From Sipunculus nudus (lineage: Eukaryota > Annelida > Sipuncula > Golfingiida > Sipunculidae): 64,000 bases of DNA. How positions within the stretch are numbered: position 1 is the stretch's first letter; each line of letters starts with the position of its first letter. Below are positions 1-59,717 of this stretch, piece by piece. The position numbers and the translations under genes are program-made. The notes below the pieces were generated by a model, which saw only the letters and a program-made list of their open reading frames with translations, made no database searches and was not told the origin of the DNA. The DNA lies in NCBI GenBank assembly GCA_026874595.1, contig CM049307.1, positions 27,998,362 through 28,062,361 of the forward strand, read 5' to 3'.

Positions 1-1545
1 AAGATATAAAAAAATATACAATATTTTATAATGGAATTCACAAATTTTGTTTTTCCTACACAGGCTAAAACAATTTGAATAAAGAGTACCCCATTCTTCT
101 TCCAAAATATTATATTTAAGGCTATATATTAATTTTGTTTCAGAAGTTGGTCTTAGCTGACTGACAAAATAGTCATAAACCTTTCTTAAAGTAATATTCT
201 CCATTACAGATCTCTCTTATAGTATGACTGTACAATAAGTTGACCTGTTTAACCACGGATCTATATACTAAATAGTCTCTTTGTTTTGCACCATTAGCTA
301 GCCAGTAATCAAACTTCCTTACGGTACCGTCATCTTTAAATATCTGATTTACATGGACCAATCCGCTTTCATATAAAGATTTACAGAATATCGGTCTTCC
401 TTCAGTTGTTATAAATTTATTATTCCAAATAGATACGGATTCATCTCGAACTCATATCTTTCCAACTCCTAAGTATATCAAGATAAAAATTTGGAATAGT
501 CCCTTTTAGGTAATCTATGGTGTAGTTCCAGTGTAGCAGAAATTTTAAGCTTCCATACCTGGCACTAAAATTATCAATAAAAAATTTCCAATCTTTATCT
601 GTATTATCCAAGTATCTCTTGATCCACATGATTTGTTGCCCTTTAATATAACTATCTATGTGTAGCATGTTCAGACCTCCACTCTTCACTGGTTTCACTA
701 AAATTTCTCTTTTTACTTTTCCTTTTGTTTGACCTTTCCATATGAATGACCATAATATTTTCTTTATTCTCTCTTTATAGCTTTTTGGTAATATAAAGTT
801 TGATATTAGATGTGCAAATTTTGAAAAACATAATGTTTTAACTATTTAAATTCTACCTTGTTAAGTGAGGTTTCTTTGTCTCCATATGTTTGTAAGCTCA
901 TAAATATTTCTTATTTTTTAATCAAAGTTCAATTCATTGCACGTCTCTTGGTTGTAGGATATGTGGATACCTAGAACTTTGATACAAGTGGACCATATTA
1001 ATCCTAATGGTTTTTTCATTACTATTTTTAAGTTTCCCTAACCACGTTGCCTCAGTTTTATCTTTATTAATTTTCAAACCTGAATACTGCCTGAACAGTC
1101 TAAACAAGTTTAAAACAACTTTAGCGGACTCTAAATCATTCACAATTACTGTAGTGTCATCTGCATACAACACTAATTTTAATTCCTCATTTTTTAATTT
1201 AATACCATGTATTTCTAAATTATATCTTATATTAATTGCCATAATTTCTAAACAAATTATAAAGATATATGGCAACAGTGGATCTTGCCGAACACCCTTT
1301 CTTATTTTAAAATACCCTGAAGAATGACCACTATTCATATTACATGCCTGAGCATCTTTATATAATAATCTAACCCATTTTAAGAATGAAGGACCAAAAT
1401 TGAAAGTTTCTGATGTTGCATTAATAAATTTCCATTCTACAGTATCAAAAGCCTCCTCAAAATCTATTGTTAAAAGTTTACCATTTAATTTCTTTTGATT
1501 TAAATAATACATTGAGTCAAGAATAGTTCTAATTGCTTCATTTAT
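1..1545 (-). mobile_element. L1-like LINE ORF2, RT core to C-terminus (3' part, interrupted)
   Basis: Reverse transcriptase half of a non-LTR retrotransposon ORF2, read on the minus strand. From 1545 downward it shows the RT motifs in order: LTIDFEEAFDTVEW (catalytic Asp block), GVRQDPLLPYIF (normally GVRQGDPLSP, so one Gly codon is lost) and the active-site box LVLYADDTTVIV. Farther on, near 860-440, come a KGQTKGKVKREI-like stretch and GGLNMLHIDSYIKGQQIMWIKR, typical of the region after the RT in L1/Tx1-type ORF2. The 361-173 frame continues as C-terminal ORF2. Frames change several times, so this copy is dead. It enters the window from the left, so its 3' end and tail are not visible. Its upstream half is at 5294-6976, separated by an inserted element. 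The L1-like assignment is family knowledge; exact clade is not determined. Confidence 0.88.
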
Positions 1546-1546
1546 T

Positions 1547-1575
1547 AGCTCAGCTGACTGAAAGTCATCTGAGCT
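1547..1575 (-). other. 3'-terminal hairpin of pearl-like copy 1
   Basis: Two 13-base arms, AGCTCAGCTGACT and AGTCATCTGAGCT, separated by three bases. One mismatch in the stem. On the element strand the loop is TTC. It lies next to CTATAG (1574-1579) and the microsatellite, and directly abuts the insertion point in the LINE. Confidence 0.85.
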
Positions 1576-1589
1576 ATAGCGATCACTCT

Positions 1590-1632
1590 TTGTCCGTCGT
1601 CCGTCTGTCCGTCTGTCTGTCCGTCTGTCCGT
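1590..1632 (-). repeat. (ACGG)/(ACAG) tetranucleotide tract of pearl-like copy 1
   Basis: On the plus strand the tract is CCGT/CTGT units, on the element strand ACGG/ACAG units. This tetranucleotide run just inside the 3' end is a hallmark of bivalve pearl elements and recurs at 15922-15950 in copy 2. Confidence 0.85.
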
Positions 1633-1699
1633 TAACCAGGCACAAATCGTAACCGCTAGAACTGGAATCTTCTTACTTGACATTCTGGGAGGTCCATGA

Positions 1700-3770
1700 A
1701 AAATCTCCTTGGAAACCAGAAATTAGGTCTCTGTTACCCATATCCTTCGAGCTATGGGGCCCCAAAGTACCCCCCAGAAAAGTCCAAAATTTCATACAAA
1801 AACTTCAATATCTCATTAACTACTTGACTGATGGTCATGATTTTTGGCATACATATTGATCATGAGAGGTTCCATCAGTTCCTGAAGACTGGTGGCGCCA
1901 CCTGTATTTTTCGATTTTTTACGAATTTTTTTCTCTATTTTTGAGACCTTTAAAGAATGAACATCTGTTAACAAGGCACAAATCGTAATGACTGGACTTA
2001 GAATCTTCATTCTCGACACACTAAGAGACCTATGAAAAGTCTCCATGGAAACCAGAAATTAGGTCTCTGTTACTCATATCCTTCCAGCTATGGGGCCCCA
2101 AACTACCCCCCAGTAAAGTAAAAAATTTCAAACAAAAACTTCAATATCTCATTAAATACTTGACTGATGGTCATGATTTTTGTCATACATATTGATCATG
2201 AGATGTTCCATCACTTCCTGCAGACTGGTGGCGCCACCTGTATTGTTCAATTTTTTACGAATTTTTTTCTCTATTTTTGAGACCTTTCAAAATGTAAACA
2301 TCTGTTAACAAGGCACAAATCCTAAAGACTGGACCTAGAATCTTCATTCTTGACACACTGAGAGACCTATGAAAAGTCTCCATGGAAACCAGAAATTAGG
2401 TCTCTGTTACCCATATTCTTTGAGCTATGGAGCCCCAAAGTACCCCCAAGAAAAGTAAAAAATTTCATACAAAAACTTCAATATCTCATTAACTACTTGA
2501 CTGATGGTCATGATTTGTGGCATAACTATTGATCATGAGATGTGTCATCACTTCCTGCAGACTGGTGGTGCCACCTTTATTGTTCGATTTTTTACGATTT
2601 TTTCCTCTATTTTTGAGACCTTTAAGGATGCTGTCATCTGTTAGCTTGGCACAAATCGTAACGACTGGACCTAGAATCTTCATTCTTGATACACTGAGAG
2701 GTCCATGAAATATATCCTTGGAAACCAGAAATTAGGTCTCTGTTAACCATATCCTTCGAGCTATGGGGCCCCAAAGTACCCCCCCCCCCCCGAGTAGTCA
2801 AAAATTTCATACAAAAACTTCAATATCTCAATAACTACATCACTGATGGTCATGATTTTTGGCATACATATTGATTATGAAATGTTCCATCAGTTCCTGC
2901 AGACTTGTGGGGCCACCTGTATTGTTTGATTTTTTACGATTTTTTCCTCTATTTTTGAGACCTTTAAGGATGCTGTCATCTGTTAACGTGGCACAAATCA
3001 TAACGACTGGACCTAGAATCTTCATTCTCGACACACTGAGAGACCTATGAAAAGTCTCCATGGAAACCAAAATTAGGTCTCTGTTACCCATATTCTTCGA
3101 GCTATGGAGCCCTAAAGTACCCCCAAGAAAAGTAAAAAATTTCATACAAAAACTTCAATATCTCATTAACTACTTGAATGATGGTCATGATTTGTGGCAT
3201 AACTATTGATCATGAGATGTGTCATCTGTTCCTGCAGACTGGTGGCGCGACCTGTATCGTTCAATTTTTTACGATTTTTTCCTCTATTTTTGAGACCTTT
3301 AAGGATGCTGTCATCTGTTAGCATGGCACAAATAGTAACGACTGGACCTAGAATCTTCATTCTCAACACACTAGAAGACCTATGAAAAGTCTCCATGGAA
3401 ACCAGAAATTAGGTCTCTGTTACCCATATCCTTTGAGCTATGGGGCCCCAAAGTACCCCCCCAGAGTAGTCAAAAATTTCATACAAAAACTTCAATATCT
3501 CAATAACTACATCAATGATTGTCATGATTTTTGGCATACATATTGATTATGAGATGTTCCATCAGTTTCTGCAGACTGGTGGCGCCACCTATGTTATCTA
3601 TCAAGAGGGTACAAATTGCAACAGCTGGACCTAGAAACTTCATTCTTGTCATGCAAGGAGGCCCATGAAGAGTGCCTGTGGAAACTTGAAATTAGGTCTC
3701 TGTTACCCATATCCTTCAAGCTATAGGTCTTTGAAGTATCCCTTAGAATAATGGACAATTTGATACAAAA
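1700..3770 (-). repeat. Tandem ~337 bp core repeats of pearl-like copy 1
   Basis: The landmark GGTGGCGCCACC (a perfect 12-bp palindrome in its best copies) occurs at 1891, 2227, 2564, 2906, 3241 and 3578, giving spacings of 335-342 bp. Each unit also repeats the phrases ACAGAGACCTAATTTC, GGACCTAGAATCTTCATTC (plus-strand form) and AACTTCAATATCTCA. Two more palindrome copies, at 3995 and 4606, are spaced irregularly (417 and 611 bp). Open frames of about 60-100 codons in these units are repeat artefacts, not genes. Confidence 0.9.
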
Positions 3771-5293
3771 GCTGAAGTATCTGAACAACTAATACGGAGA
3801 TCATCATGATTCTTTGCATGGATATTGACCATTAAGTGTTTTTAGCTCAGCTGACTGTAAGTCATCTGAAGTATCCCTCAGAATAATGGACAATTTGATA
3901 CAAAAGCTCAAGTATCTAAACAACTATTGCAGTGATCACCATGATTCTTTGCATGGATATTGATCATGGAATGTGTCATCAGTTTCTGCAGTATGGTGGC
4001 GCCACCTGTATTTTTTTTTATTTTTACGAATTTTTTTCTCTATTTTTGAGACCTCATAAGATGCGGTCATCTGTTAACATGGCACAAATCGTAACAACTG
4101 GACCTAGAATCTTCTCTCTTGACATGCTGAGAGGCCCATGAAAAGTTTCCTTAAAAACTTGAAATTAGGTCTCTGTTACCCATAACCTCTGAGCTATGGG
4201 GCTCCGAAGTACCCCCCAGAATAATGGAAAATTTGATACAAAAGCTCAAGTATCTGAACAATTATTATATTGATCACCATGATTCTTTGCATGGATATTG
4301 ATCAGGAAATGTCCGTCGTCCGTCCGGCCATCCAGGCGTCTGTCTGTTAACAGGGCACAAATCGTAACCGCTAGACCGGGAATCTTCTTACTTGAAATCC
4401 TTGGAGGTCTATGGAAATTCTCCTTTTAAACCTGAAATTAGGTCACTGTGACCTATATTCTTCGAGCTATGGGGTTCTGAAGTACCCCCCAGAATAATGC
4501 AAAATTTAATACAAAAGCTCAAGTATCTGAACAACTAATGCATTAATCACCATGATTCTTTGCATGGATATTGATCATGGAGTGTTTCATCAATTTCCGG
4601 AGATTGGTGGCGCCACCTATATTTTTTTTATTTTTTACGATTTTTTTTCTCTACTTTTGTGATCTTTAAACATTTGGTCATCTGTAAACAGGGCACAAAT
4701 CATAATGACTGGACCTAGAATCTTCTGCCCTCACCTCCAGGGAAGCCCATAAAAGGTCTACATGGAAACCCGAAATAAGGTCCCTGTTACCCATATCCTT
4801 CATGCTCTGGGGCTCCGAAGTACTCCCAAGAATAAAGATTTGGTCATCTGTTAACAGAGCACAAATTATAATGACTTGACCTAGAATCTCCTTTCTTGAT
4901 ATGCTGGGAGGCCCCTGAAAGTCTCCTTGTGCACCTGAAATTACATCTCTGTTACCCATATCCTTCATCCTATTTGGCTTTGAAATACCCCCCAGAATAA
5001 ACATTTGGATTTGTTAACAGGGCACAAATCATAATAACTGGACCTAGAATTTTATTTTTTGACATGCTGGGAGACCCCTGAAAAGTCATCTTGTAAACCT
5101 TGAAAATAGGTGTCTGTTACCCATATCCTTCATGCTACAGAGCTCCATAGTACCCCAATGAATATTGGATGATTTTATACAAAAGGTCAAGTTTGGAAAA
5201 AGTATTTCATTCAAATTTGACATTCAGATGATAAAATTACTTTTGTCAATGTCTTCCTGGTCAGCTGTGCGTCATGACCCCTGGGTCACTTGT

Positions 5294-6976
5294 TGATGTA
5301 TTTTTCATAAACCCATATTGGTTTCTATTTATAATATTTGTTAACACTGACTTAAGCCTAAAGCTGAAAGCTTTTGTCATAATTTTATAGTCTGTATTCA
5401 GTAGAGATATTGGACGCCAATTTTTAGGTTTTGTACGGTCTTTATCCTTTTTTTTCAACAAGTGTGATTACAGCTTGTCTCTGAGATAGTGTTAAAGAGC
5501 CATTATCCAAAGAAAAATTGAAAGTATTACCTATTATTTGACCCAACTTATTCCAAAACGTTTTTATAAATTCTGATGTGAGGCCATCATTTCCTGGGGA
5601 TATATTTGGTTTAAATGTATTCAAAGATTTCAAACATTCTTCAACAGTCAGATATCCTTCACATTTATTTTGCGTTTCAATGGTTAATTTTGGAATGTTA
5701 TTATTATTTAAAAAATATTATCTTTAAAGTCTGTTTGATTATTTGTTTGAGAAGAGTATAATTTAAGGTAGAATCTTTTCTGCTCATTTAATATATTTTG
5801 TGTACCTATTATTAGTTTTCCGTCATCATCTACCAATTTTTTATATGGTTTTTTTGTCCATTTTTTTTTCAAAATTATAAAAACACTTCGTGCTCTTTTC
5901 ACCTTTTTCTACCCATCTTATTTTTGCTCTTGTTATTATTCCCTCCACTTGAGTTTCATAAAGATCATATAGTTCTTCTTGAAGCTGTTCATAGTGGTCT
6001 TTTTCCTGTTGAATATCTTCTAGAGCTTCTATTTCTCCAATAAGACACAATTCTCTTTCTTTATCATCTTTCTTTTTTTTTTGCCAATTTTATTGTTTCT
6101 TGTCTTATTTTATATTTAATGAATTCCCAGAGGCTGCTTGGATTCAGCATCTCATTTTCCTTCAGCCATTCATCAATTTAATTATTTATCAAATTTATAT
6201 AATATTGATTATTAAGAAGCTGATTATTAAATTTCCAGTATATCCTTTTCCTCTTTCTTCGAATGAATTTTCTTTTATTGTAATTTTTATTCCTGAGTGA
6301 TCTGACATAAAAGCTGGAGTGATAGAATTATCTGTTATTTCATCCTGTAAATGACTTGTAATAAAGTAATAGTCTAATCTACTGTAAAACTTTTTTTGTT
6401 TTTTGTCTCCATGTGTATTGTTCTTTTTTTTGGGTTCTTGATTCTCCATATGTCATTGAGATCAAACTTACTTTTTAATTTTAAGATTTCTTTAATTACT
6501 TTTGATTTTAGAGGTGTTTGTCCACATATTTTATCTCTACTACTGAGAGCACAATTCCAGTCCCCTCCAATAATTATATTTTGTTGGTGTGTTAGCTCCA
6601 TTTCATTCAATTTTTTAATAATACTATTAAAGAACACTATTTGCTTTCCTTCATAATTTGGAGAATAGATGTTTATAATATTATATAAAATGTCGTTTAC
6701 TTCTATTTGACAAATTAGTAATCGGCCCTCACTATCATTTAAAACTTTGACTATGTTATATTTAATTTGGTTTGTAAACAAACAAGCTACTCCTCTGCTG
6801 TGGTTACTCCCATGACTAAACAGAATATCCCCCCCCCCCCATTCATTTTTCCAAATATTTTCATCAGTTTTTTGGCTATAGGTCTCTTGCTATAAAATAA
6901 TGTCTGCTTTATGTCTCCGTATCCAGCTAAAGATAGCTCTTCTTTTTTTAAAGGTTATAAGGCCTCTTACATTCAT
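5294..6976 (-). mobile_element. L1-like LINE ORF2, endonuclease domain and start of RT (5' part)
   Basis: The amino-terminal half of the LINE ORF2 interrupted at 5293. Reading from an ATG at 6976: MNVRGLITFKKRRAIF, then QETYS (the catalytic Glu block), IINIYSPN, IIGGDWN and finally SRLDYYFIT with MSDHSGI (6449-6195), which are the motifs of an AP-like endonuclease in order. After a linker (6050-5708) come SPGNDGLTSEFIKTFW and KNWRPISLLNTDYKI (5633-5261), the start of the RT domain, ending at NQYGFMKN just before the inserted element. A stop after ADIIL, a frame change at a 12-C run (6829-6840) and further shifts show it is inactive. No ORF1 is recognisable upstream on this strand. Confidence 0.88.
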
Positions 6977-13164: not shown

Positions 13165-14639
13165 ACAAGTGAGCCATGGGTCATGACGCTCAGCTGACTG
13201 GGAAGAGATTCGCAAAAGGAAATTTTATCATCAGAATGGTAGTATATACCCATTCCACTGAAGCATCAAACAGATGAACCAACAGGCCAAGATTTGGTCT
13301 GTATTTATATATCTCAAAAATAGAGAAAAAATGTGTAAACTTTAAAAACTAGAATACGGGTAACTGACAAGTGACTACGTGTATCCGCCAAATTCAGAGT
13401 GGAACGGGTGAAGTGAGGCATGGATTGAGTGGCCAAGGGAAATAGAGTGAGGTATGTTGCATATTTGCATGGATGTCTGCAGCCTAAATGTGTATGTAGG
13501 TTGTGCCACCTACCACAAATCCAGAAAGCTGTCCAAGTTGTATGCATATGCAAAATTTTAGGCAGAAAAGTCAAACCACTACATGTATATGAGTGATTTT
13601 AGCCCACGGCAGACAAACAGACAGACACTGTGCAAAATGGTTGCAGGTGACCCCTCCAGTTTTGTGTATGATAAAGACCTATGTGAGATCTAAACACATG
13701 CACAATTTTGGCCCAATCAGTCAAATGGTTCCTTAGATATGAGCTTAGATGTGTGCAGCGTTAACTAGAATGTAGGTGGCGCCACCGGTCATAAAATCAA
13801 GAAAGCTGTCAAGGATGTATAAACCTGCAAAATTTCAGGCAGTTATGTCGAACCACTACAGAGAAATGAGTGATTTTAGGCCACGGCAGACTAACAGACA
13901 GATGCTGTGCAAAATGTGCAAAAATGGTTGCAGGTGGCCCCTCCAGTTTTGTGTATGATAAAGACCTATGTGAGATCTATACACATGCAAAATTTTGGCC
14001 CAATCGTTCAAACGGTTCCCGAGATATGAGCTTGGATGTCTGCAGCATAAACTAGTATGTAGGTGGCGCCACCTACAGCTATCAAAGGGCTACATTTGTA
14101 TCAATTTTATTTCCTGATCGGTCAAACGGTTTCCAAGATATGAGCTTGGATGTCATCAGCGTGAACGTGAATGTAGGTGGGGCCACCTTTCGTAAAATCA
14201 AGAAAGCTATCCAAGATGTATACGCATGACGAATTTCAGGTGAATTAGTCAATTCACTGCAGAGATATGAGTGATTTTAACACAAGGCCGATGAACAGAT
14301 GGACACTGTGCAAACATGGTTACAAGTGGCGCCACCATTTTTTGTGTATGTTATAAAGCAATCCAAGGGCTACATTTGTATAAACTTTATTTCCTGATCG
14401 GTCAAACGGTTCCCGAGATATGAGGGTTTATGTGTGGAAACAGACCCACAAATGGACGCCGGATAGAGAGGAAAGGTCAGAGGTCAACGCAAATTGGTTA
14501 GGCACCATGTGACCCGATAATTGGTGTAAGTTTCCGAGAAATCGGTCCATTAGTCTAGAGGAGCTCTCTGGAAACGAACGCGGCGGCGGCGGAGGAACCC
14601 GGTCAAAAACTTCGTTTTGGCAGATACAAAAATACAGGT

Positions 14640-15880
14640 GGCTCCACCAGTCTGCAGAAACCAATAAAAACACTTAATGGTCAATATCCATGCAAGGAAT
14701 CATGGTGATCTCTGCATTAGTTGTTCAGATACTTCAGCTTTTGTATCAAATTGTCCCTTATTCTGAGGGATACTTCGGAGTCCTATAGCTTGAAGGATTT
14801 GGGTAACATAGACCTAATTTCAAGTTTCCACAGGCACTTTTCATGGGCCTTCTTGCATGACAAGAATGAAGATTCTAGGTCCAGCTGTTGCGATTTGTAC
14901 CCTGTTGACAGATAACCACATCTTTAAAGGTCTCAAAAAAAAGAGTAAAAAATTCGTAAAAATTTGAAAAAATAGAGGTGGCGCACCCAGTCTGCAGAAA
15001 CTGAAGGAACAGCTCATGATCAATATGTATGCCGAAAATCATGACCATCAGTGTTTTAGTTATTGAGATACTGCAGTTTTTGTATCAAATTTTCCATTAT
15101 TCTGGGGGGTATTTTGGAGCCATACAGCTTAAAGAATATGGGTAACAGAGACCTAATTTCAGGTTTCCATGGAGACTTTTCATGGGTCTCCCTGTGTGTC
15201 AAGAATGAAGATTCTAGGTCCAGTTTTTATGATTTGTGCCACGCTAACAGATGACAGCATCCTTAAAGGTCTCAAAAATAGAGGAAAAAATCGTAAAAAA
15301 TCTAACAATACAGGTTGCGCCACCAGTCTGCAGAAACCGATGGAACATCTCATGATCAATATGCATGCCAAAAATCATGACCATCACTGATGTAGTTATT
15401 GAGATATTGAAGTTTTTGTATGAAATTTTTTACTATTCTGGGGGGTATTTGGGGCCCCATAGCTCGAAGGATATGGGTAACAGAGACCTAATTTCTGGTT
15501 TCCATAGAGACTTTACATAGGTCTCTAAGTGTGTCGAAAATGAAGATTCTAGGTCCAGTCGTTACGATTTGTGCCACGCTAACAGATGACAGCATCCTTA
15601 AAGGTCTCAAAAATAGAGAAAAAAATTCGTAAAAAATCTAACAATTCAGGTGGCGCCACCAGTCTGCAGGAAGTGATGTATCATCTCATGATCAATATGT
15701 ATGCCAAAAATCATGACCATCAGTCGAGTTGTTAATGAGATATTGAAGTTTTTGTATGAAATTTTTGACTTTTCTGGGGGGTACTTTGGGGCCCCGTAGC
15801 TCAAAGGATATGGGTAACAGAGACCTAATTTCTGGTTTCCAAGGAGATTTTTTTATGGACCTCTCAGAATCCCAAGTTAC
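14640..15880 (+). repeat. Tandem ~336 bp core repeats of pearl-like copy 2
   Basis: Palindrome landmarks derived from GGTGGCGCCACC fall at about 14637, 14977, 15313 and 15649, a period of 336 bp. Each unit repeats the same sentences as copy 1 in the opposite genomic orientation. Confidence 0.85.
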
Positions 15881-15921
15881 AAGGTTCTAGGTCCAGCGGT
15901 TACAATTTGTGCCTGGTTAAC

Positions 15922-15950
15922 AGACGGACAGACAGACGGACGACGGACAA
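15922..15950 (+). repeat. (ACGG)/(ACAG) tract of pearl-like copy 2
   Basis: Runs of ACGGACAG and ACGGACG just inside the 3' end, followed within 20 bp by CGCTATAG. Confidence 0.85.
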
Positions 15951-15964
15951 AGAGTGATCGCTAT

Positions 15965-15993
15965 AGCTCAGATGACTTTCAGTCAGCTGAGCT
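15965..15993 (+). other. 3'-terminal hairpin of pearl-like copy 2
   Basis: Arms AGCTCAGATGACT and AGTCAGCTGAGCT with loop TTC and one mismatch. Same position and loop as in copy 1. Confidence 0.85.
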
Positions 15994-15995
15994 AA

Positions 15996-18176
15996 AAAAA
16001 AGAAATGTTTTTAAGTACGTTGCACTTTATTATAATTAAAAATAGAACTATTGAAAATTTAAAATAAAACAAAAATGGCCTTAAAGTGTTATCATTTCGT
16101 ATCCTCCATACTGACTTCTATCATTTTGTATTCCTTTCCAAGTTCTATTGCTCATGTTTAATATAAACAACTACACGGGTAGATCTGATATAAAGAAAAT
16201 GATGCAATAACTTGCAAATAGTGGAATAAAATGCATTGATATTTGCGGAGAAAATACATTGTTACGGTATTTCAAATCAGTATTGATAGACAAGATTGGC
16301 GATATATAAAAATGAATACATGTTTAGTCACTGGTTGGATTGCAATATCCCGATTTAATATTTAGTTCTCATTTTACTCACAAAACGTAAATTTCTAACA
16401 AAATATGGAACAATTTCTTACTCTTTTATTGTTAACATAGAACATATATCAAGATTAAAACATTGTAATGCCTTGTGTTAACAAAAGACTGTTTGGTACA
16501 GGCAAATCTAAGAAATTCGATTAGTACCATTTTTTAACTGCCGTTTTGCAGTCATTAAGCTGAAAAATCTCATTTCCTGAAATAACATATTATCTCAGAT
16601 ATTAATTTCTGATTTTTTTAAACTAATCAGATAAATCGTTGTTTGGAAAGAGAGCTTTTTCATTTTGAATCTTTATAAGTCTGATTAAACTTTGATTGAC
16701 AATTGTTTACTTCTTGGGTTAAAAAGGCTGTATTATTTAGGGCAGTAGGGAATGGTTGGAAAAATAGTTTTTCTTTGTAAATTCATCAACAAAGAAATAC
16801 AATAATAAATGGCGAATAACGTGGTAAGGGGTGAGGAATGTTGTTTACCGCGCCTTATCTCGGTATTGTTATATTAGCAACTAAGGCATCTCCTGGATAA
16901 ATAGTCTTAGATCTAGTGTTAAAACGTTGTCTTATGAATGTATTGCAGTTATCAGCACATGTATATATGGCAGTACTGAACGGGTTAGGATCAAGCTGGT
17001 GGATAAGGCATACATTTATTTCTACAGCTTTACACGTCTCCCCCAACGTATCAGCTAGTCACTATTCCGTTGGCGTTGTTACATGTCTTAACAATAAAAA
17101 TATAACCGTCATATCCACTTAGGTTGTGCGAAATTAAGTAATCCTCCTAAGGAATTTTTCAATAGAGTTATTCTCAACAAGTTACATTGTATGATAAAAT
17201 TGAGATGTATTGAGAGACATTGATGGTAAACATGTAAATATTCTTATGCTAATTCTGTCATGCTTACGTCCCGAGGCTTTGAACAAATATTATTTCGCCG
17301 CTGTTGTTGTAATTGTCAGCGCATTAGTTTGCCAGGTATGATGTTGTTAATTTTGATAGGTATTTTGTTAACCAATCAATATATATTAAGGTCATTCATG
17401 TAAACTATACATGATATACTATATGTGTCATTTCCCGTTTAACCAACCTTTATAAATGTAACTGACCGAAACGTTTGCCTAGCACTTAAAATCACTACAC
17501 ACACCCTTGGCCAATCATTTTCAGTTTAGGTGAGTCATCCGGTTACTTATTTATAACATCTTGCTTGGTAAATTACACTTAGTAAATATATGCCATTTTG
17601 TTCTAGCCCTTTGTTTGTTTATCTTATTATTTTGCTTCAATTCTGCGAGCACTGTACTATCACAACTATGTACTTCAATGACGATTTGTATTTTATTAAA
17701 TGTAGAACCATGGCAAATTTTCCTTTCTTTTCCTAACTCAATTCATTTTACATGGTTTTTTTAAGAAATAGGTTGCAATAACTATTGCGAAGCACTTTCC
17801 ATACACTCATCATGCAGCGGCCTTTCATTGCAGTTGTTTATTATATCCTTTTGACCGCTGCTTTCTGTAGCAAGATTATCCGGGGCTCGCCACGGGGACT
17901 CGCACAGGAAAAAAACGTTATCAGACCAATGAGAGCACGGTATCGCATTGTTACCCAACTCCAGGTTTTAAATCTGGGACATCGTACTTTTGTTGGTCTG
18001 ACTCCTCGTCCTCTCCAAGTCCTATTGCTGAGACCCACGAAAAATTGCTGACCAAGTAGCAGCAGTTTATATGAATCAAAACTGGAACGACTGCAATGTA
18101 TAACCGCTGTGAGAGTAGTGCCACTCTATATAGCTAACATATATACGTTTGGTAGCCTCTGTATTTGATGACAACC
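15996..18176. other. No convincing gene
   Basis: AT-rich DNA. The frame at 17785-18051 (88 codons) contains a hydrophobic stretch after MQRPFIAVVYYILLTAAF that could pass for a signal peptide, but there is no recognisable mature domain and the other strand is equally open, so it is not called. Confidence 0.4.
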
Positions 18177-42327: not shown

Positions 42328-44105
42328 ACAAGTGACCCATGGGTCATGACGCTCAGCCGACTGACATGTTGACAAAATGTCCTTGCACAGACAACTTATT
42401 AAAATAATTTAGGTGGAATCATAGTACATGCATATCAGCTCAAGTTCATCAAGACCCATAATCACACAAAATTTGGTGACAATCCATTCGGCCGTTCCTG
42501 AGGAACCTGGCAATTTGTGTGTATTTTGCATTTTTTCTGGGTTGGCCTGTAACTCAAAGAATATAGATCACAGTGACCTAACTTCAGGTTTCTGAGGAAA
42601 ACTTTTGAGGAACTCTCAGGATGTCAAGATAGAATATTCTAGGGACAATGCTTTTGATTTGGGCCCTGTTTACAGATTACCGCATCTTTAAAGGTTTCAG
42701 AAATAGAGAAAAAAAATGCTTTAAAATTAAAAAAAAAATCCAGGTGGCGCCACCAGTTTGCAGGAACTGATGAAACACTCCATGATCAACATGCATACAA
42801 ATCATGGTGACCAATGCATTAGTTGTTCAGATAATGGAGCTTTTGTATCAAACTTTAATTATTCAGGGGGTAATTCTGAGCCCGATAGCTTGGAGAATAA
42901 AAGAAAGAAAGACCTAATTTCAGGTTTCGAAGGAGACTTTTCATGGACCTCCCTGGATATCAATTTAGAAGATATTAGGTTCTATGGTTATGATTTGTAC
43001 CTTGCTGGTATCAAATTTTCAATTATTCTGGGGGTAATTATAAGCCCCATAGCTTGGAGAATATGGGTAACAAAGACCTAATTTCAGGTTTCCAGGTAGA
43101 TTTTTCATGGACCTCCCTAGATGTCAAGTAAGGAGATTGTAGGATCAATGGTTACGATTTGTGCCCTGTTAACAGACAACCGCATTTTTAAAGGTCTCAA
43201 TAATAGAAAAAAATGCTTAAAAATTCGAAAAAAAATCCAGCTGGTGTCACCAGTCTACAGAAACTGATGAAACACTCCATGATCAATATGCATACAAAAA
43301 ATCATGGTAATCAATGCATTAATTGTTCAGATACTGGAGCTTTTGATTCAAACTTAAAATTATTCCGGAAAACGTCTGAGCCCCATAGCTCAATGATATG
43401 GGTAACAGAGACCTAATTTCAGGTTTCAAAGGAGACTTTCCATAGACTTCCCTGGATGTCAAGTGATATAGTGGTTATGATTTGTGCCCTGTAAAGAGAC
43501 AACTGCATCTTTAAATGTTTCAAAACTATAGCAAATATGCTTTCAAATTCGAAACAAAATCCAGGTGGCGCCACTAGTCTGCAGGAACTGATGAAACACT
43601 CCATGATCAATATGCATACAAAGAATCATGGTGATCAATACATTTGTAATTATACTTGGGGGTACTTTCGTGTGTGTAAGCTCAGAAGATATAAGTAACA
43701 GACACCTTATTTCAGGTTTCTGAAGTGAACTTTTGAGGAACTCTCAGGATGTCAAGTTAGAAGATTCTAGGTCCAATATTTATGATTTGTGCCTTGCTTT
43801 GGTATCAAATTTCCAATTATTATTGAGGTACTTATAAGCCCCATAGCTCGTAGAATATAAGTAACAGAGACCTTATTTTAAGTTTTTACGTTGTTACGAT
43901 TATTGCCCCGTTAACTGACGACCGCATCTTTAAAGGTCTCAAAAATGGAGGAAACAATGCGTAAAAATTAAAAAACTTCCAGGTGGTGCCACAAGTCTGC
44001 AGGAACTAATGTAACACTCCATGATCAATATGCATGCAAAGAATCATGGTGATCAATGCATTAGTTGTACAGATACTACAGCTTTTGTATCTTACTTTTA
44101 ATTAG
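42328..44105 (+). mobile_element. Pearl-like element, copy 3 (3' end missing)
   Basis: Starts ACAAGTGACCC with the perfect 14 bp palindrome TGACCCATGGGTCA and GCTCAGCCGACTG. Its body is made of core repeats with the same phrases as copies 1 and 2 (ACAGAGACCTAATTTCAGG, TTTAAAGGTCTCAAAAAT) and palindrome landmarks near 42741, 43565 and 43982. It fades out near 44105 with no microsatellite, CTATAG or hairpin, so it is truncated at the 3' side. The short frames in it are repeat artefacts. Confidence 0.78.
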
Positions 44106-44876
44106 TAAACAAATGCCATCCCTTGTGCGAAAGATTCTCAGAAGTGAATAATAAACACTATTTTAAATTTATTTTTCGGTGCATGCTGGTTGAAACTTCG
44201 TACCTCCTTAGTCTTTTTGACGAAGGCCTTGAGTTTATACAAAATCTGTACCTTTGGTTTATCTGAACAATATGTACATAACATACACACCCTGCATGCC
44301 AGATTTTACGACATATGACTCATTGAGAGACACTAATGTGGGTGAGCCTTGATAATCTTCATATTATCGGAAAGGTCACGAGTATCATCGAAGTTAAAAG
44401 AAAAAAAAAAACGCGACATCAAAGACATAGTTAAATAATGCGATATTACAGCGACTGACTTATATTATCAAGGGCAGGTCTGGAACGTGATCTCTCATAC
44501 AGAACAAAGCTACGACGGTCATAATTCCAGACACAAAGTGATAAAGTGAAAAGATCCCTTAATGCCGTCTTTGTTTAACTATGGACCTTGCGGGGGTGGT
44601 CACCAACTTATCATGTACAAAGCCTCATTACCTGGGGAGGTGAAATAATATAACTACGAGAGGACTTTGAAGTCTGACTTCAGTGAGTGTCTGCCAGTGC
44701 TTCACGTGCCTAGACATGTGGTATTTAACATGAAGTGATGACGTTAGAGATGGCACTGTCACACCTCTGGTATATATTACATCCAAGCTGCAGTGACGAT
44801 GCCCCCTTTACTAATTTTTTCATCCATGTATGTATTTATGATTTCGATGTTAAAAAAGGGCTGTACTGAAGGTGTA
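44106..44876. other. No gene seen
   Basis: No supported feature between the truncated element and the minisatellite. Confidence 0.4.
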
Positions 44877-47800
44877 GGCTCTTTGATCCCGAAATAGTTG
44901 TACGTTAATGCAGGTATTGGTTCTCTGATCGTGAATCTATGTACGCTGACGGAGGTATGGGTTCTCTGATCCTGACTCTTTCAAGTTGTACGTGTGCTCT
45001 CTGACCCAGAATCGTTGAACGTTGACCGAGAAACAGGCTCTCTGATCCCGAAATAGTTGTACTTTAATGCAGGTATTTGTTCTCTGATCGTGAATCCATG
45101 TACATTGACGGAGGTATGGGTTCTTTCAAGTTGTACGTGTGCTCTCTGATCCAGAATCGTTGAACGTTGACCGAGAAACAGGCTCTCTGATCCCGAAATA
45201 GTTGTACGTTAATGCAGGTATTTGTTCTCTGATCGTGAATCCATGTACGTTGACGGAGGTATGGGTTCTTTCAAGTTGTACATGTGCTCTCTGATCCAGA
45301 ATCGTTGAACGTTGACCGAGAAACAGGCTCTCTGATCCCGAAATAGTTGTACGTTAATGCAGGTATTTGTTCTCTGATCATGAATCCATGTACGTTGACG
45401 GAGGTGTGGGTTCTTTCAAGTTGTACGTGTGCTCTCTGATCCAGAATCGTTGAACGTTGACCGAGAAACAGGCTCTCTGATCCCGAAATAGTTGTACGTT
45501 AATGCAGGTATTTGTTCTCTGATCGTGAATCCATGTACGTTGACGGAGGTATGGGTTCTTTCAAGTTGTACGTGTGCTCTCTGATCCAGAATCGTTGAAC
45601 GTTGACCGAGAAACAGGCTCTCTGATCCCGAAATAGTTGTACGTTAATGCAGGTATTTGTTCTCTGATCGTGAATCCATGTACGTTGACGGAGGTATGGG
45701 TTCTTTCAAGTTGTACGTGTGCTCTCTGATCCAGAATCGTTGAACGTTGACCGAGAAACAGGCTCTCTGATCCCGAAATAGTTGTACGTTAATGCAGGTA
45801 TTTGTTCTCTGATCGTGAATCCATGTACGTTGACGGAGGTATGGGTTCTTTCAAGTTGTACGTGCGCTCTCTGATCCAGAATCGTTGAACGTTGACCGAG
45901 AAACAGGCTCTCTGATCCCGAAATAGTTGTACGTTAATGCAGGTATTTGTTCTCTGATCGTGAATCCATGTACGTTGACGGAGGTATGGGTTCTTTCAAG
46001 TTGTACGTGTGCTCTCTGATCCAGAATCGTTGAACGTTGACCGAGAAACAGGCTCTCTGATCCCGAAATAGTTGTACGTTAATGCAGGTATTTGTTCTCT
46101 GATCGTGAATCCATGTACGTTGACGGAGGTATGGGTTCTTTCAAGTTGTACGTGTGCTCTCTGATCCAGAATCGTTGAACGTTGACCGAGAAACAGGCTC
46201 TCTGATCCCGAAATAGTTGTACGTTAATGCAGGTATTTGTTCTCTGATCGTGAATCCATGTACGTTGACGGAGGTATGGGTTCTTTCAAGTTGTACGTGT
46301 GCTCTCTGATCCAGAATCGTTGAACGTTGACCGAGAAACAGGCTCTCTGATCCCGAAATAGTTGTACGTTAATGCAGGTATTTGTTCTCTGATCGTGAAT
46401 CCATGTACGTTGACGGAGGTGTGGGTTCTTTCAAGTTGTACGTGTGCTCTCTGACCCAGAATCGTTGAACGTTGACCGAGAAACAGGCTCTCTGATCCCG
46501 AAATAGTTGTACGTTAATGCAGGTATTTGTTCTCTGATCGTGAATCCATGTACGTTGACGGAGGTGTGGGTTCTTTCAAGTTGTACGTGTGCTCTCTGAT
46601 CCAGAATCGTTGAACGTTGACCGAGAAACAGGCTCTCTGATCCCGAAATAGTTGTACGTTAATGCAGGTATTTGTTCTCTGATCGTGAATCCATGTACGT
46701 TGACGGAGGTGTGGGTTCTTTCAAGTTGTACGTGTGCTCTCTGACCCAGAATCGTTGAACGTTGACCGAGAAACAGGCTCTCTGATCCCGAAATAGTTGT
46801 ACGTTAATGCAGGTATTTGTTCTCTGATCGTGAATCCATGTACGTTGACGGAGGTGTGGGTTCTTTCAAGTTGTACGTGTGCTCTCTGATCCAGAATCGT
46901 TGAACGTTGACCGAGAAACAGGCTCACTGATCCTGAATCTTTGTAGGCTGACGGAGGTATTGGCTATCTCATCCCGAATCGCTGTAAGATGACGAATTAT
47001 TGTCTCTCTAATCCGCGATTTTTGTACGCTGGCAGAGGCATGGGTTCTCTGATACGGGATCATTGCACGTTGACGGATAACGGGCTCTCTGATCCTATAT
47101 TTTGTTTGTATGTTGACGGGTTAGGGTCTCTCTGATCCAGAATCTGTGTACGCTGAAGGAGGGATTGGCTCTCTGATCCCGAATCTTTTTAGGCTGACGG
47201 AGGTATGTGCTCTCCAATCCAGAATCTGTGTACGCTGACGGAGGTATGGGCTCTCTGATCCTGAATCTTTTTAGGCTGACGGAGGTATGTACTCTCCAAT
47301 CCAGAATCTGTGTTCGCTGACGGAGGTATGGGCTCTCTGATCCCGAATCTTTTTAGGCTGACGGAGGTATATGCTCTCCAATCCAGAATCTGTGTACGCT
47401 GACGGAGGTATGGGCTCTCTGATCCCGAATCTTTTTAGGCGGACGGAGGTATGTGCTCTCCAATCCAGAATCTGTGTACGCTGAAGGAGGGATTGGCTCT
47501 CTGATCCCGAATCTTTTTAGGCTGACGGAGGTATGTGCTCTCCAATCCAGAATCTGTGTAACCTGACGGAGGTATGGGCTCTCTGATCCCGAATCTTTTT
47601 AGGCTGACGGAGGTATGTGCTCTCCAATCAAGAATCTGTGTACGCTGACGGAGGTATGGGCTCTCTGATCCCGAATCTTTGTAGGCGGACGGAGGTATGT
47701 GCTCTCCAATCCAGAATCTGTGTACGCTGACGGAGGTATGGGCTCTCTGATCCCGAATCTTTTTAGGCTGACGGAGGTATGTGCTCTCCAATCCAGAATC

Positions 47801-48062
47801 TGTGTACGCTGACGGAGGTATGGGCTCTCTGATCCCAAATCTTTTTAGGCTGACGGAGGTTTGTGCTCTCCAATCCAGAATCTGTGTACGCTGACGGAGG
47901 TATGCATTGGCTCTCTGATCACGAATCTTTGTACACCGACGGAGGGATGAGCTTTCTGATTACAAAAATTTGTACGCTGAAGGAGGTATGGGCTCTCGGA
48001 TCCCGAATCATTGCACCCTGAATGAGGTATGGGGTTTGCATATCCCCGATCTCTGTACGCGT
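44877..48062. repeat. Minisatellite array built on ~41-42 bp monomers
   Basis: The base unit resembles GGCTCTCTGATCCCGAATC followed by TTTGTACGCTGACGGAGGTAT. Three domains are visible: a 145 bp higher-order repeat (45036-46920), single diverged monomers (46921-47206), and an 82 bp dimer (47207 to about 47930), with decayed monomers at the right edge. The minus strand is largely free of stop codons, giving frames up to 120 codons. Because 145 and 82 are not multiples of three, the peptide changes frame every unit, so it is not a gene. Confidence 0.95.
45036..46920. repeat. 145 bp higher-order repeat, 13 units
   Basis: GGCTCTCTGATCCCGAAATA recurs at 45036, 45181, 45326 and so on to 46776, with the next unit boundary at 46921, exactly 145 bp each time. 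Each unit holds three related monomers plus a 20 bp remnant (TTCTTTCAAGTTGTACGTGT). Units are nearly identical, differing at a few sites such as GGAGGTATGG versus GGAGGTGTGG. Confidence 0.95.
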
Positions 48063-56541: not shown

Positions 56542-58072
56542 TTAATGACTTCCTTTCCCTCCGGAGGTCTGCGCCACCCCGCTTTTTACAGCCTGCTCAT
56601 ATGAAGGAGGAGGGGACCTGATCAGGCCAAGTTCTATATCATGCTCTAAATCAAACTTATTAAGTGATATGTGGCGCGGACCTTTCTTCTTACCGGAGGT
56701 GGTTCTTCTACTGAACGCTGCAATACTTGAAATGAGAGTTCGCAGACGATCTATGCTGCGAGTGTGGGTCTCCGATTTGGCGGGAGAGAGGCCGGAGCGG
56801 CCGGCTGGTTCCAGCTCTGACCTCCCCGTGGCCCCCTCCTCCCTGCACGTCCCTACCCTCCCATCGTCCCCCGTGGGGGACGAAGCGGTCCGAGCATCCA
56901 ATAAAAAAGGCACAGATTCATATTCAAAAGAGGTTTGGGTTTGTATTTCTCTCCCTTGAGTTTTCCTTGTTGTATACTCAAAATCGCTAGAAAATCCCGA
57001 GCTCTGTATCTTAGAGTCGTCCACGCTGTCTGTTGTGCTATACTGGATTTGATGCATTAATTTAGCGACTTTTCTCTCCACTTCCGAGTCGTCGGTATTG
57101 TTTCTTTTAAGAGGAGGTCGTCGCCGTTCAGATGGTGGACTTTCCTCTTTGTTTGGCTCTGGTTCTTCCTGAATGCTCCATGTGCGCATGCTCCTACTCA
57201 TGCGTCGTTCGGAGCTTCGGGTTTGCGGTGGTGAACCAGCTCCATCAATAACACGAGGCATGCGCGGAGGAATGTCGTAGGCCGGATACCCGCTGTCGCC
57301 GGCCAGGTTGATCATGCGGACACCGCGAGCATCCACAGTCATGTCACTCCCAGCAGACCACGCGCTAAAAGCCGAGAGTTTACGAGAATCTGGGACATCA
57401 GTGCCCGACCATGCACTGAATGCTGACAACTTCCGGGCGTCTTGTATTTCTGTAGCGGACCACGCACTCATCGCAGAAAGCTTACGCGAATCGAATGATA
57501 TCGTACCGATCGATTTGCGGCCAATAGACAAGATATCGCTGGCTTCCTCGTCCATCCCAGATAAACCTTCCCTTCGCGTGTAGCTAATGCTGTCCCGACT
57601 TTGTACGGATACGTCAGCGTCAAAATCAGACTCCCGACCCGAAAAGTCGCCGAAACGGGAGCTGAGAAAGGTAGAGGCCCGGCTGCTGCGACTTCCGGTC
57701 CGTGTACTCCGACTGGTCGCTATCGACAGAGAATACTCAGAAGAATACGGTAGAAGTTCATTTTCCGTCAGGTAGGGGGCGCCCATTAAGTGAGCCCCAT
57801 ATAGAAGAGTTAGAGAATGTCTTGCCATTCCCGGAGGCAGACTCGCTCGGCGGTCATCGATCGTGTCGGCCCGGCTGATCTCGATCCCAGGAAGTTGGTA
57901 CAGCACGGTGCCCTCTTTTGTGTTATCAAGGCTGACTCTCTGGGCGATCATTGATAGACCACGTGGACGGGAACCAAAGGGATTACTGTACTCCTCAAGA
58001 AACACCTTGCTGCTACTCCGGCGTGACCTTGACCCTGCATGTGACCCTCCAAATATAGAACCTCGCTCCGAG
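56542..58072 (-). CDS. 3'-terminal coding exon of an uncharacterised host gene (Ser/Arg-rich tail, PPSY motif)
   Basis: The only long conserved-looking frame. On the minus strand CTTACTTTTTTCAG (58086-58073) is a good splice acceptor. The exon opens with one base completing a split codon, then SERGSIFGGSHAG..., and stays open for 509 codons to a TAA at 56542. The apparent start at 58005 is a GTG inside the exon, not a real start. GC content and codon use are clearly coding-like against AT-rich flanks. It is Ser/Arg-rich and low in hydrophobic runs, with no membrane segment. Counted from the GTG, three near-identical 16-17 residue repeats (DSRKLSAMSAWS, DARKLSAFSAWS, DSRKLSAFSAWS) fall at residues 172-222, each with an RKLS phospho-site-like motif. 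Near the end, RSPPPSYEQAV supplies a PPxY motif of the kind bound by WW domains. It is probably the cytoplasmic tail of a larger, possibly membrane, protein. Upstream exons are not found in the remaining 6 kb. Confidence 0.82.
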
Positions 58073-58086
58073 CTGAAAAAAGTAAG
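58073..58086 (-). other. Splice acceptor of the terminal exon
   Basis: CTTACTTTTTTCAG on the minus strand: a pyrimidine tract ending in CAG at the point where the open frame begins. Confidence 0.75.
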
Positions 58087-59013
58087 AACATTTGCGTCTA
58101 CGCTAAATGGATCACATAAATACTATACGCTTAATAATACGGATTCAACATAAAACTGAAACTATTCCCCTTTCAAAATTAAGTTAAGAAATGGATAAGA
58201 AATGCATGATAGAAAAAATGTCCTTCAGCATGTAAATAAAATACCTTTACATAATCTTAAACCATTGTCGGGCATTTGTCATCGGGCTTTTGTCATCACA
58301 CTGACATTCTCTGTTTATTTTCGTTTTAGAATAACCACTGGCAGAATTCTTTTTTTTTTATTAATGACGCGCTAGTGTTGCAGGATTCAACCTGGGACAG
58401 ACTATAACCTATTATCTAGATTGTTAACACAAGAGTGTGAGCAAGGTTGTCTTCTAAATTTAGCTCAGACGTAATCAGAACGGTTGCGGTCTTTTATTCC
58501 TCATGTCAGAATCCAGGAGACCATCACAAACACAGTCTGGGAAAACATCTCACAGTCCAGAAAACACAAATCTTCCCCACGGCAGTAATTGAAACTAACA
58601 ACCGATCGGCATGCGACAGCTGCAGGCTCTCGGTGAAGGCTTACACTCCCGCTCTACCCTTAAGCAGCAAAAAAGGTTGGTGCCAAATACAAATTCTATC
58701 AATCAAAATCTGCTTTATAAGAATGAATGTCTGCGCACGCGCAGTTGGCCCATATACCTTTCAATATGAACGCGCTAACAATAATCACTGCCTGTGAGCG
58801 CAAATTTATTCGTTCATGCTTGTTGAATTTTCTCACCCTAGGCTTTGAGTATCGCTCATATAAATATTGGATGAAAGAACGTCTTTGCATTTCAATTTTA
58901 CTATTCAATATAAGGCGGCTCATCTGGGTTCCTGTGGCTACCTGGCGCCAAACATATGTATCTTTTCAATGTCTGGGTTAACAGAGCACTTTCTCGAATA
59001 CTAAAGTATATAT
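58087..59013. other. Presumed intron, nothing else seen
   Basis: Upstream of the terminal exon on the minus strand. No further exon recognised. Confidence 0.4.
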
Positions 59014-59148
59014 TGTTACGAAGACAAATTGCTGAAGGGGAAATATTGGGCCGATCCTGGATTCGACCCCATTTTGATGGCGCATATATCCGGCGTTCCA
59101 ACCGCTTCGCTAGAAAAGTTAGGTCCGCTTTTATGTCACCCCGTAACA
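59014..59148 (-). repeat. LTR (3' copy on the element strand)
   Basis: 135 bp, TG...CA ends, paired with 59268-59402. The outer parts are near-identical, the middle diverged. Confidence 0.75.
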
Positions 59149-59247
59149 CACCACCTCTTAAGAGCGTTCTGATATCAGAACAAGACTAATTATCCCAGGA
59201 GTCACACTTTGGTGAGCTTATTCCCTGGGCCACAAAGTTTACTGTCA

Positions 59248-59264
59248 CGTTCGACGAGTCCCCA
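59248..59264 (-). other. Putative primer binding site
   Basis: TGGGGACTCGTCGAACG begins three bases inside the LTR. The first 12 bases match a tRNA-Pro-type site at 11 positions. Confidence 0.5.
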
Positions 59265-59267
59265 TTT

Positions 59268-59402
59268 TGTTACGAAGACAAATTATTCAGGGGAAAATAC
59301 TGGGCCGATCCGGAATTCGAACCCATGTTGGTGGCGAGTCTGGCGTACCAACAAGCTTCACTAGCGAGGCAGTTCGGTCCGCTTTTATGTCACCCCGTAA
59401 CA
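59268..59402 (-). repeat. LTR (5' copy on the element strand)
   Basis: 135 bp, same termini as the partner. Box B GGTTCGAATTCC lies at 59323-59312. Confidence 0.75.
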
Positions 59403-59717
59403 ATATTAATTTATTATAAAATATTAAGCTGAAAACGTGTAACATATATCTGAATACAACGTCCTATGGGTTATAATATTTTAAATATCCATCGATGTAG
59501 CTCAGGTAGTAGGTTTAACATCGAATGGACAGAGATTCTTATTAAATTACGGACTTATTTCCTTAGGTTCCATTGAAGATTACTATGTATTGAAGGGATC
59601 CATAATCAAATGATGACACGTGATACTAGAGTGACTTATTTTTATAAAGGATAGGTCCATGGCCTGTTCATTGCTCTGTCTATTGAATGAGAATAAAATA
59701 CAGTACAATTAGAATAT

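Follow-up and report, generated by a model that had tools for sequence, protein, structure and literature searches.

A probable Helenus-type terminal-repeat retrotransposon in miniature with tRNA-type promoter motifs in its LTRs in Sipunculus nudus

What kind of element consists of two 135-bp direct repeats, 119 bp apart, that carry motifs resembling the internal promoter of a tRNA gene? Such a pair lies at positions 59014–59402 of the window, i.e., the whole 64,000-nt stretch of Sipunculus nudus DNA that was analyzed (assembly GCA_026874595.1, contig CM049307.1, positions 27,998,362 to 28,062,361). A sequence-only reading had proposed a miniature LTR retrotransposon and, beyond that, an animal counterpart of the plant Cassandra elements with a tRNA-derived promoter, possibly a hybrid with a SINE. 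Judged by its sequence and by the published description of the group, the element is, with a probability of roughly 0.9, a Helenus-type terminal-repeat retrotransposon in miniature (TRIM).

The two repeats, at 59014–59148 and 59268–59402, have the ends TGTTACG...CGTAACA, enclose a 119-bp internal region (59149–59267, minus strand) with no room for genes, and are bordered by ATAT on the left (59010–59013) and right (59403–59406), a target-site duplication (TSD); the structure first noticed is thus present as described. Because all signals lie on the minus strand, 59268–59402 is the 5′ LTR and 59014–59148 the 3′ LTR, and the 389-bp element (135 + 119 + 135) has its 5′ LTR at the high coordinate. 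The primer-like stretch previously seen three bases inward of one LTR is the primer-binding site (PBS) TGGGGACTCGTC (59253–59264, minus strand), which begins 3 nt past the 5′ LTR and agrees at 11 of 12 positions with the tRNA-Pro primer site TGGGGGCTCGTC given in PMC1769482. At the opposite end of the interior, the polypurine tract (PPT) TTAAGAGGTGGTG (59149–59161, minus strand) abuts the 3′ LTR. A BLAST search of the unit against the window aligned repeat with repeat at 79.7% identity over 143 columns (E = 4e-30) and found at most weak, short matches in the rest of the window, while a global alignment of the two repeats gave 84.7% identity over ungapped columns with 8 gap columns.

Repeats that differ at 15% of their ungapped columns, besides the 8 gaps, would suit two neighbors of independent origin, i.e., solo LTRs that happened to insert 119 bp apart. 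The assembly (1,426,538,692 bases in 153 contigs) refutes this reading, to which we assign practically no probability: the interior recurs genome-wide, with 923 candidates when used as a query (40 scored, each 94–100% identical, the window copy included), it is flanked by LTRs in the 30 loci read, and the outer flanks are equal in 25 of 38 two-LTR copies. The 389-bp unit as query gave 3654 first-look candidates (40 scored, 53 matches), and a single LTR gave 2720 (40 scored). Since these candidate counts are loose, the copy number can be placed at roughly hundreds to thousands. From the assembly, 80 loci were retrieved, some of them duplicates of one copy. The test set used below comprises 38 different copies, the window copy (L001) included, that are not in tandem and have both LTRs almost complete; L021, L037, L039, L046, L050, L051, and L059 were left out as duplicates of other loci, as was every locus that was tandem, truncated, or limited to one LTR. 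Among other collections, exact searches with a 20-base LTR end in the viral one (viral_contigs) and a 19-base LTR end in the prokaryotic one (genome_contigs) found nothing, and the unit had no match in the phage collection.

The 38 copies bear the marks of LTR retrotransposition. An exact 4-bp TSD is present in 25 and absent in 13; random re-pairing of the flanks (2000 shuffles) gave a mean of 4.06 and a maximum of 10, and flanks displaced by 1, 2, 3, 5, and 8 bases agreed over four bases in 9, 7, 5, 3, and 5 copies, respectively. Identity over 5 bp was seen in 3 of 38. The duplicated sequence was ATAT in 10 of the 25 exact cases and other sequences in the remaining 15. A perfect 12-nt tRNA-Pro PBS occurs in 24 copies, and 32 have a site with no more than one mismatch, compared with a single perfect match (1/38) at a control site past the 3′ LTR. 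The copies listed have a purine-rich tract ahead of the 3′ LTR (e.g., TTAAGAGGGGGTG), and the interior keeps a length of 111–123 bp throughout the set.

Equally informative is how the LTRs resemble one another. We ranked each of the 76 LTRs against the other 75 over 117 length-stable columns: the partner LTR of the same copy had a median rank of 10.5 (38 expected), came first in 14 of 76 cases, and fell within the first five in 31. Mean identity was 0.910 between partners and 0.890 over all pairs. Mean similarities among 5′ LTRs (0.894), among 3′ LTRs (0.886), and between the two classes (0.890) are close, and the arms thus do not form lineages of their own; the two are equalized at each insertion, as by reverse transcription. 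Whole-LTR identity within copies averages 0.912 (range 0.812–1.0). One copy, L058, has two identical 145-bp LTRs between ATAT/ATAT flanks, and the window copy, at 0.847, is the fourth lowest of 38. By sequence, the family is judged to be mostly old, and the window copy old and damaged.

A SINE is a single unit that lacks an LTR pair, a PBS, and a PPT, and its TSD is variable. A MITE or another DNA transposon moves as a whole unit, and its two arms are not made identical. Both were ruled out as candidates: the SINE by the LTR pairs, the PBS and PPT, and the 4-bp TSD of the copies, and the DNA transposon because the arms pair by copy rather than by position and those of L058 are identical. The TSD, the tRNA-Pro PBS, the boxes described below, and the likeness of partner LTRs together identify a miniature LTR retrotransposon instead of a SINE or MITE. 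The sequence-only reading had named unpaired SINE- or MITE-like copies, or copies with boxes lost, as the outcome that would speak against it; what the assembly holds is paired copies, with a TSD in 25 of 38 and both boxes in 65 of 76 LTRs.

The near-identical ends and drifted middle noted in the window LTRs are real. The middle has diverged largely because each LTR lost a different unit of a short duplication that contains box A. The long form of the LTR measures ~156 bp (at most 165 bp among the 76) and, in the LTR alignment, carries the units ...GCTAGTGAAGCTTGCTTT and GCTAGCGAAGCGG..., both of which include a box-A-like sequence. In short LTRs, one or the other unit of this 18–20-bp duplication is missing, with varying borders. 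In the window, the 5′ LTR retains the first unit, of which TAGTGAAGC remains at 59355–59363 (minus strand), and has lost most of the second, while the 3′ LTR is without the first. Arm lengths within a copy are uncorrelated (rho 0.07), and most unit losses therefore look later than insertion; the identical 145-bp LTRs of L058 show, at the level of sequence, that a length variant can also be inherited.

Length classes bear on a further reading, in which two tRNA-type modules move as one SINE-like or MITE-like dimer and are not LTRs at all. With LTRs of at least 150 bp counted as long and those below 144 bp as short, the 28 two-LTR copies obtained with the full-unit and LTR queries comprise 21 long plus short, 5 short plus short, and 2 with a mid-length LTR, and the long arm is 5′ in 17 of the 21 and 3′ in 4, as a fixed dimer of unequal modules would have it. 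This sample leans to short arms because both LTRs of the window query are short, and the 17:4 excess is put down, without proof, to the same query bias. The interior query returned 10 usable copies, of which 4 are long-long, 2 long-short, 1 short-long, 1 short-short, and 2 mid-length. Against the dimer stand these 4 long-long copies, the lack of correlation between arms, either of which may be short, the likeness of partner arms with no split into 5′ and 3′ lineages, the fixed 4-bp TSD with PBS and PPT, and a clear solo LTR with its own TSD (L049). We regard a dimeric unit as very improbable, and the narrower idea of two different modules per element was rejected, as short LTRs miss either unit of the duplication and the sample carries the query bias.

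A search for solo LTRs had been suggested alongside that for full copies, and both were found. Among 11 single-LTR loci checked, L049 is the one clear solo LTR (flanks ATGT/ATGT), nine are flanked by a PBS or PPT on one side or both, and L031 is ambiguous, its TSD being uninformative because the locus sits within an AT repeat. Four tandem arrays were also examined. The array L069 has 6 LTRs and 5 interiors between equal outer flanks (CAGT/CAGT), L075 and L066 likewise have equal flanks (CTGA/CTGA and TAGT/TAGT, respectively), and L062 has unequal ones (ATAT/GTAT). The first three fit growth of the array by unequal recombination following a single insertion.

How would such an element be transcribed? 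Scoring used consensus strings for box A and box B of tRNA-type promoters. In the 3′ LTR of the window copy, box A TAGCGAAGCGG (59102–59112, minus strand, 9/9 fixed letters) and box B GGGTCGAATCC (59059–59069, minus strand, 9/10) start 43 bp apart, a score that none of 1000 dinucleotide shuffles matched. The sequence-only reading had located this pair; the other LTR scores too, with TAGTGAAGCTTG and GGTTCGAATTC (box B, 59313–59323, minus strand) at a spacing of 40 (7/9 and 9/10), a score equaled by 1 of 1000 dinucleotide shuffles. Across the 38 copies, both boxes (at least 7/9 and 9/10 letters) are found in 65 of 76 LTRs, and the best pair is spaced by 43 bp in 57 of 76, a recurrence that alone is no proof of use because the copies share descent. 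The commonest letters are TAGCGAAGCGG for box A and GGTTCGAATCC for box B; the former reads TAGCG, so that the GGTTC and YGG of Helenus are present and the fifth letter of box A is G instead of Y.

On this basis, we consider it rather probable that the LTR promoter is used by RNA polymerase III. In the predicted cycle, the polymerase would start in the 5′ LTR, 10–20 nt upstream of box A, would occasionally pass the weak TTTT of that LTR (59294–59297, minus strand, ~25 nt past box B), which is a candidate terminator and 3′ border of R, and would halt at the TTTT in the 3′ LTR. The resulting RNA, of R-U5-interior-U3-R structure, would be packaged by a helper LTR retrotransposon, most likely a Gypsy element, whose reverse transcriptase would prime on tRNA-Pro and copy it and whose integrase would insert the copy with a 4-bp stagger. 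Of the 76 LTRs, 64 have a TTTT near the U5 side, and in 26 of 38 copies both LTRs do; the window copy has it in the 5′ LTR and TTT only at that place in the 3′ LTR. A further TTTT occurs in the body of 34 of 76 LTRs, in most cases ~50 nt ahead of box B, as well as in 5 of 38 interiors. A TTTT within the 5′ LTR should shorten transcription and counts against the polymerase III model.

A second point against that model is the TATA-like sequence CATAAAAG (59382–59389 in the 5′ LTR, minus strand, with a counterpart at 59128–59135 in the 3′ LTR), which would be compatible with RNA polymerase II too. A conventional TRIM transcribed by polymerase II from this sequence, with boxes A and B as a relic or a chance likeness, would account for the exact CATAAAAG that 60 of 76 LTRs have in their first 25 nt and for LTR columns 8–24, among the most conserved of the LTR (0.96–0.98). 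The boxes themselves show no clear excess of conservation (0.93 for box A and 0.95 for box B vs. 0.93 in the remaining LTR), and ARAGORN and Rfam found no tRNA fold in the loci scanned; both observations favor the polymerase II reading as far as they go, the former being what is expected of dead copies and speaking neither for nor against promoter use. Against this reading stand the box score of the window 3′ LTR (0/1000 shuffles) and the 43-bp spacing in 57 of 76 LTRs, a recurrence whose weight is limited by shared descent, and the published Helenus group, in the available text of PMC10886601, has like boxes in distant hosts. We thus take transcription by polymerase II from CATAAAAG to be unlikely. 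Under the favored polymerase III model, one might picture a Helenus family in which the tandemly duplicated A block gives each LTR two alternative start points ~18 bp apart. This is a doubtful proposition; if it were true, loss of one A-block unit would shift the U3/R border in daughter elements.

Does the likeness to tRNA extend beyond the boxes? Folding the LTR as a tRNA, as had been suggested, gave a negative answer: ARAGORN found no tRNA in 45 of the 80 loci, and Rfam found none in 18 of the 80 at E up to 1. The 23 Rfam matches over these 18 loci are all below the gathering score, 22 of them to microRNA families (in flanks or at the element edge) and the remaining one a 15-nt tmRNA match in L007. 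By local alignment to a host tRNA-Lys gene (L084), the LTRs score 22.7 on average vs. 16.3 for shuffled LTRs, best around box B. In a box-fixed test, which compared a 73-nt segment of the 29 LTRs with intact boxes with tRNA genes from the same assembly, the mean score for the best gene, L084, was reached by 7.2% of box-fixed shuffles and that for L083 by 15.5%. L083 and L084 are the only host tRNAs in this comparison, as L081 lies on a bacterial contig and L082 is a bacterial-type tRNA-Thr. A molluscan Helenus element was aligned with a tRNA-Lys in the available part of PMC10886601, and a tRNA-Lys likeness in both that paper and the window family is suggestive at the sequence level. Of the proposed tRNA-derived promoter or SINE hybrid, the boxes stand, in 65 of 76 LTRs, while descent from a tRNA or a SINE2 beyond the two boxes is weakly supported by these alignments.

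The tRNA searches also brought up loci of their own. Both L083 and L084 are tRNA-Lys(TTT) genes in an array at C9:40605435-40699894, with mostly one gene per ~1.67 kb among the matches listed. A tRNA hit recurs with one and the same score (69.5 bits) at no fewer than 10 places on contigs C61, C62, C66, C69, C71, C72, C75, C89, and C90 (L085, L086), and the copy read on C61 is, by eye, a bacterial-type tRNA-Gly(TCC). Over 1201 bp, contig C61 (2.17 Mb) agrees with C62 (2.01 Mb) at 99.4% identity, L085 has 33% GC, and PdxA-like and Dtd-like genes, named by eye, are present; the Dtd-like protein reaches a best identity of 52% among 62 loci in genome_contigs. Contigs of this type probably belong to a co-assembled bacterial associate with no close relative in genome_contigs, and perhaps to several bacterial strains.

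The remainder of the window holds other repeats. A satellite of 145-bp units, mostly 98–99% alike and weaker at the edges, occupies 44832–47016 and adjoins a 41-bp tandem array (46964–48001) that holds a 174-aa stop-to-stop frame. One family of ~336-bp tandem units forms three blocks (1541–5192, 14608–15999, and 42514–44104), of which the first two are opposite in orientation and 84.6% identical over 1395 columns, and the third is more diverged. LINE-like fragments lie on the minus strand at 934–1722 and 6374–6889; they match reverse transcriptase (Pfam RVT_1, E = 5.8e-20) and, weakly and short of the Pfam cut-off, an endonuclease. Near the TRIM, a 526-aa stop-to-stop frame (56542–58122, minus strand) has no Pfam match at E 0.01 and is possibly a host gene exon. 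Rfam reported no family at gathering score across the window.

Among known systems, the closest is Helenus, and PMC10886601 was the sole paper found to mention that name together with TRIMs and LTR retrotransposons; among the papers listed, the name TRIMp3 likewise occurred in that one only. In its available text, Helenus (Kojima 2024) comprises TRIMs with tRNA-like LTRs from fungi, six animal phyla, and one plant species, described as Gypsy-dependent, with polymerase III transcription left unvalidated there. The animal families have a 4-bp TSD, a Gypsy-like PBS, and a length of 311–1263 bp, within which the 389 bp of the window TRIM falls, and most box A sequences read TRGCY..YGG, with GGTTC in box B. 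Shared with the window family are the tRNA-type boxes in the LTR, the PBS, the PPT, and the 4-bp TSD; tRNA-Pro is one of the primers of bivalve families (tRNA-Lys, His, Ile, Pro, Glu, or Ser), and tandem arrays are reported for one family. The window family differs in its TAGCG box A (TRGCY in Helenus) and in a box-A unit that is tandemly duplicated and often partly deleted. As far as that text goes, animal TRIMs with tRNA-type promoters have already been published as Helenus, and the sequence-only reading was correct in the type of element it described.

The present family contributes a large number of Helenus-type copies whose structure is well supported (by TSD, PBS, and LTR pairing), and it would widen the known range of the group should its host fall outside the taxa named in the 2024 paper. 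As LTR pairs in the 38 copies range from identical to 19% diverged, some copies are young enough for a test of polymerase III use. A group first described in 2024 could be recognized from the raw sequence of a single damaged copy, and tRNA annotation calls for caution, since tRNA-type boxes may be parts of LTRs.

Other TRIMs are more distant, going by the available parts of the papers that describe them. Plant Cassandra elements share the TRIM structure, a polymerase III-type internal promoter in the LTRs, and tandem arrays of LTRs and interiors, but they carry 5S rRNA sequence and the PBS TGGTATCAGAGC (PMC7215508), unlike the tRNA-type boxes and tRNA-Pro PBS of the window family; Rfam at E up to 10 found no 5S rRNA at 58950–59460, where it gave a single snoRNA match (E = 8.3). 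The biv-TRIM elements of bivalves are animal TRIMs with solo repeats and TDRx-I(x-1) tandem arrays, whereas their repeats of 202–218 bp, interior of 77–80 bp, and PPT of mostly GGGGAGA (PMC6934838) differ from the ~156-bp LTR, 119-bp interior, and purine tracts such as TTAAGAGGGGGTG seen here. Ajax of nemerteans is likewise a TRIM whose LTR contains a small-RNA promoter, and it differs in being 5S-derived, with a 5-bp TSD and a tRNA-Leu primer (PMC10886601).
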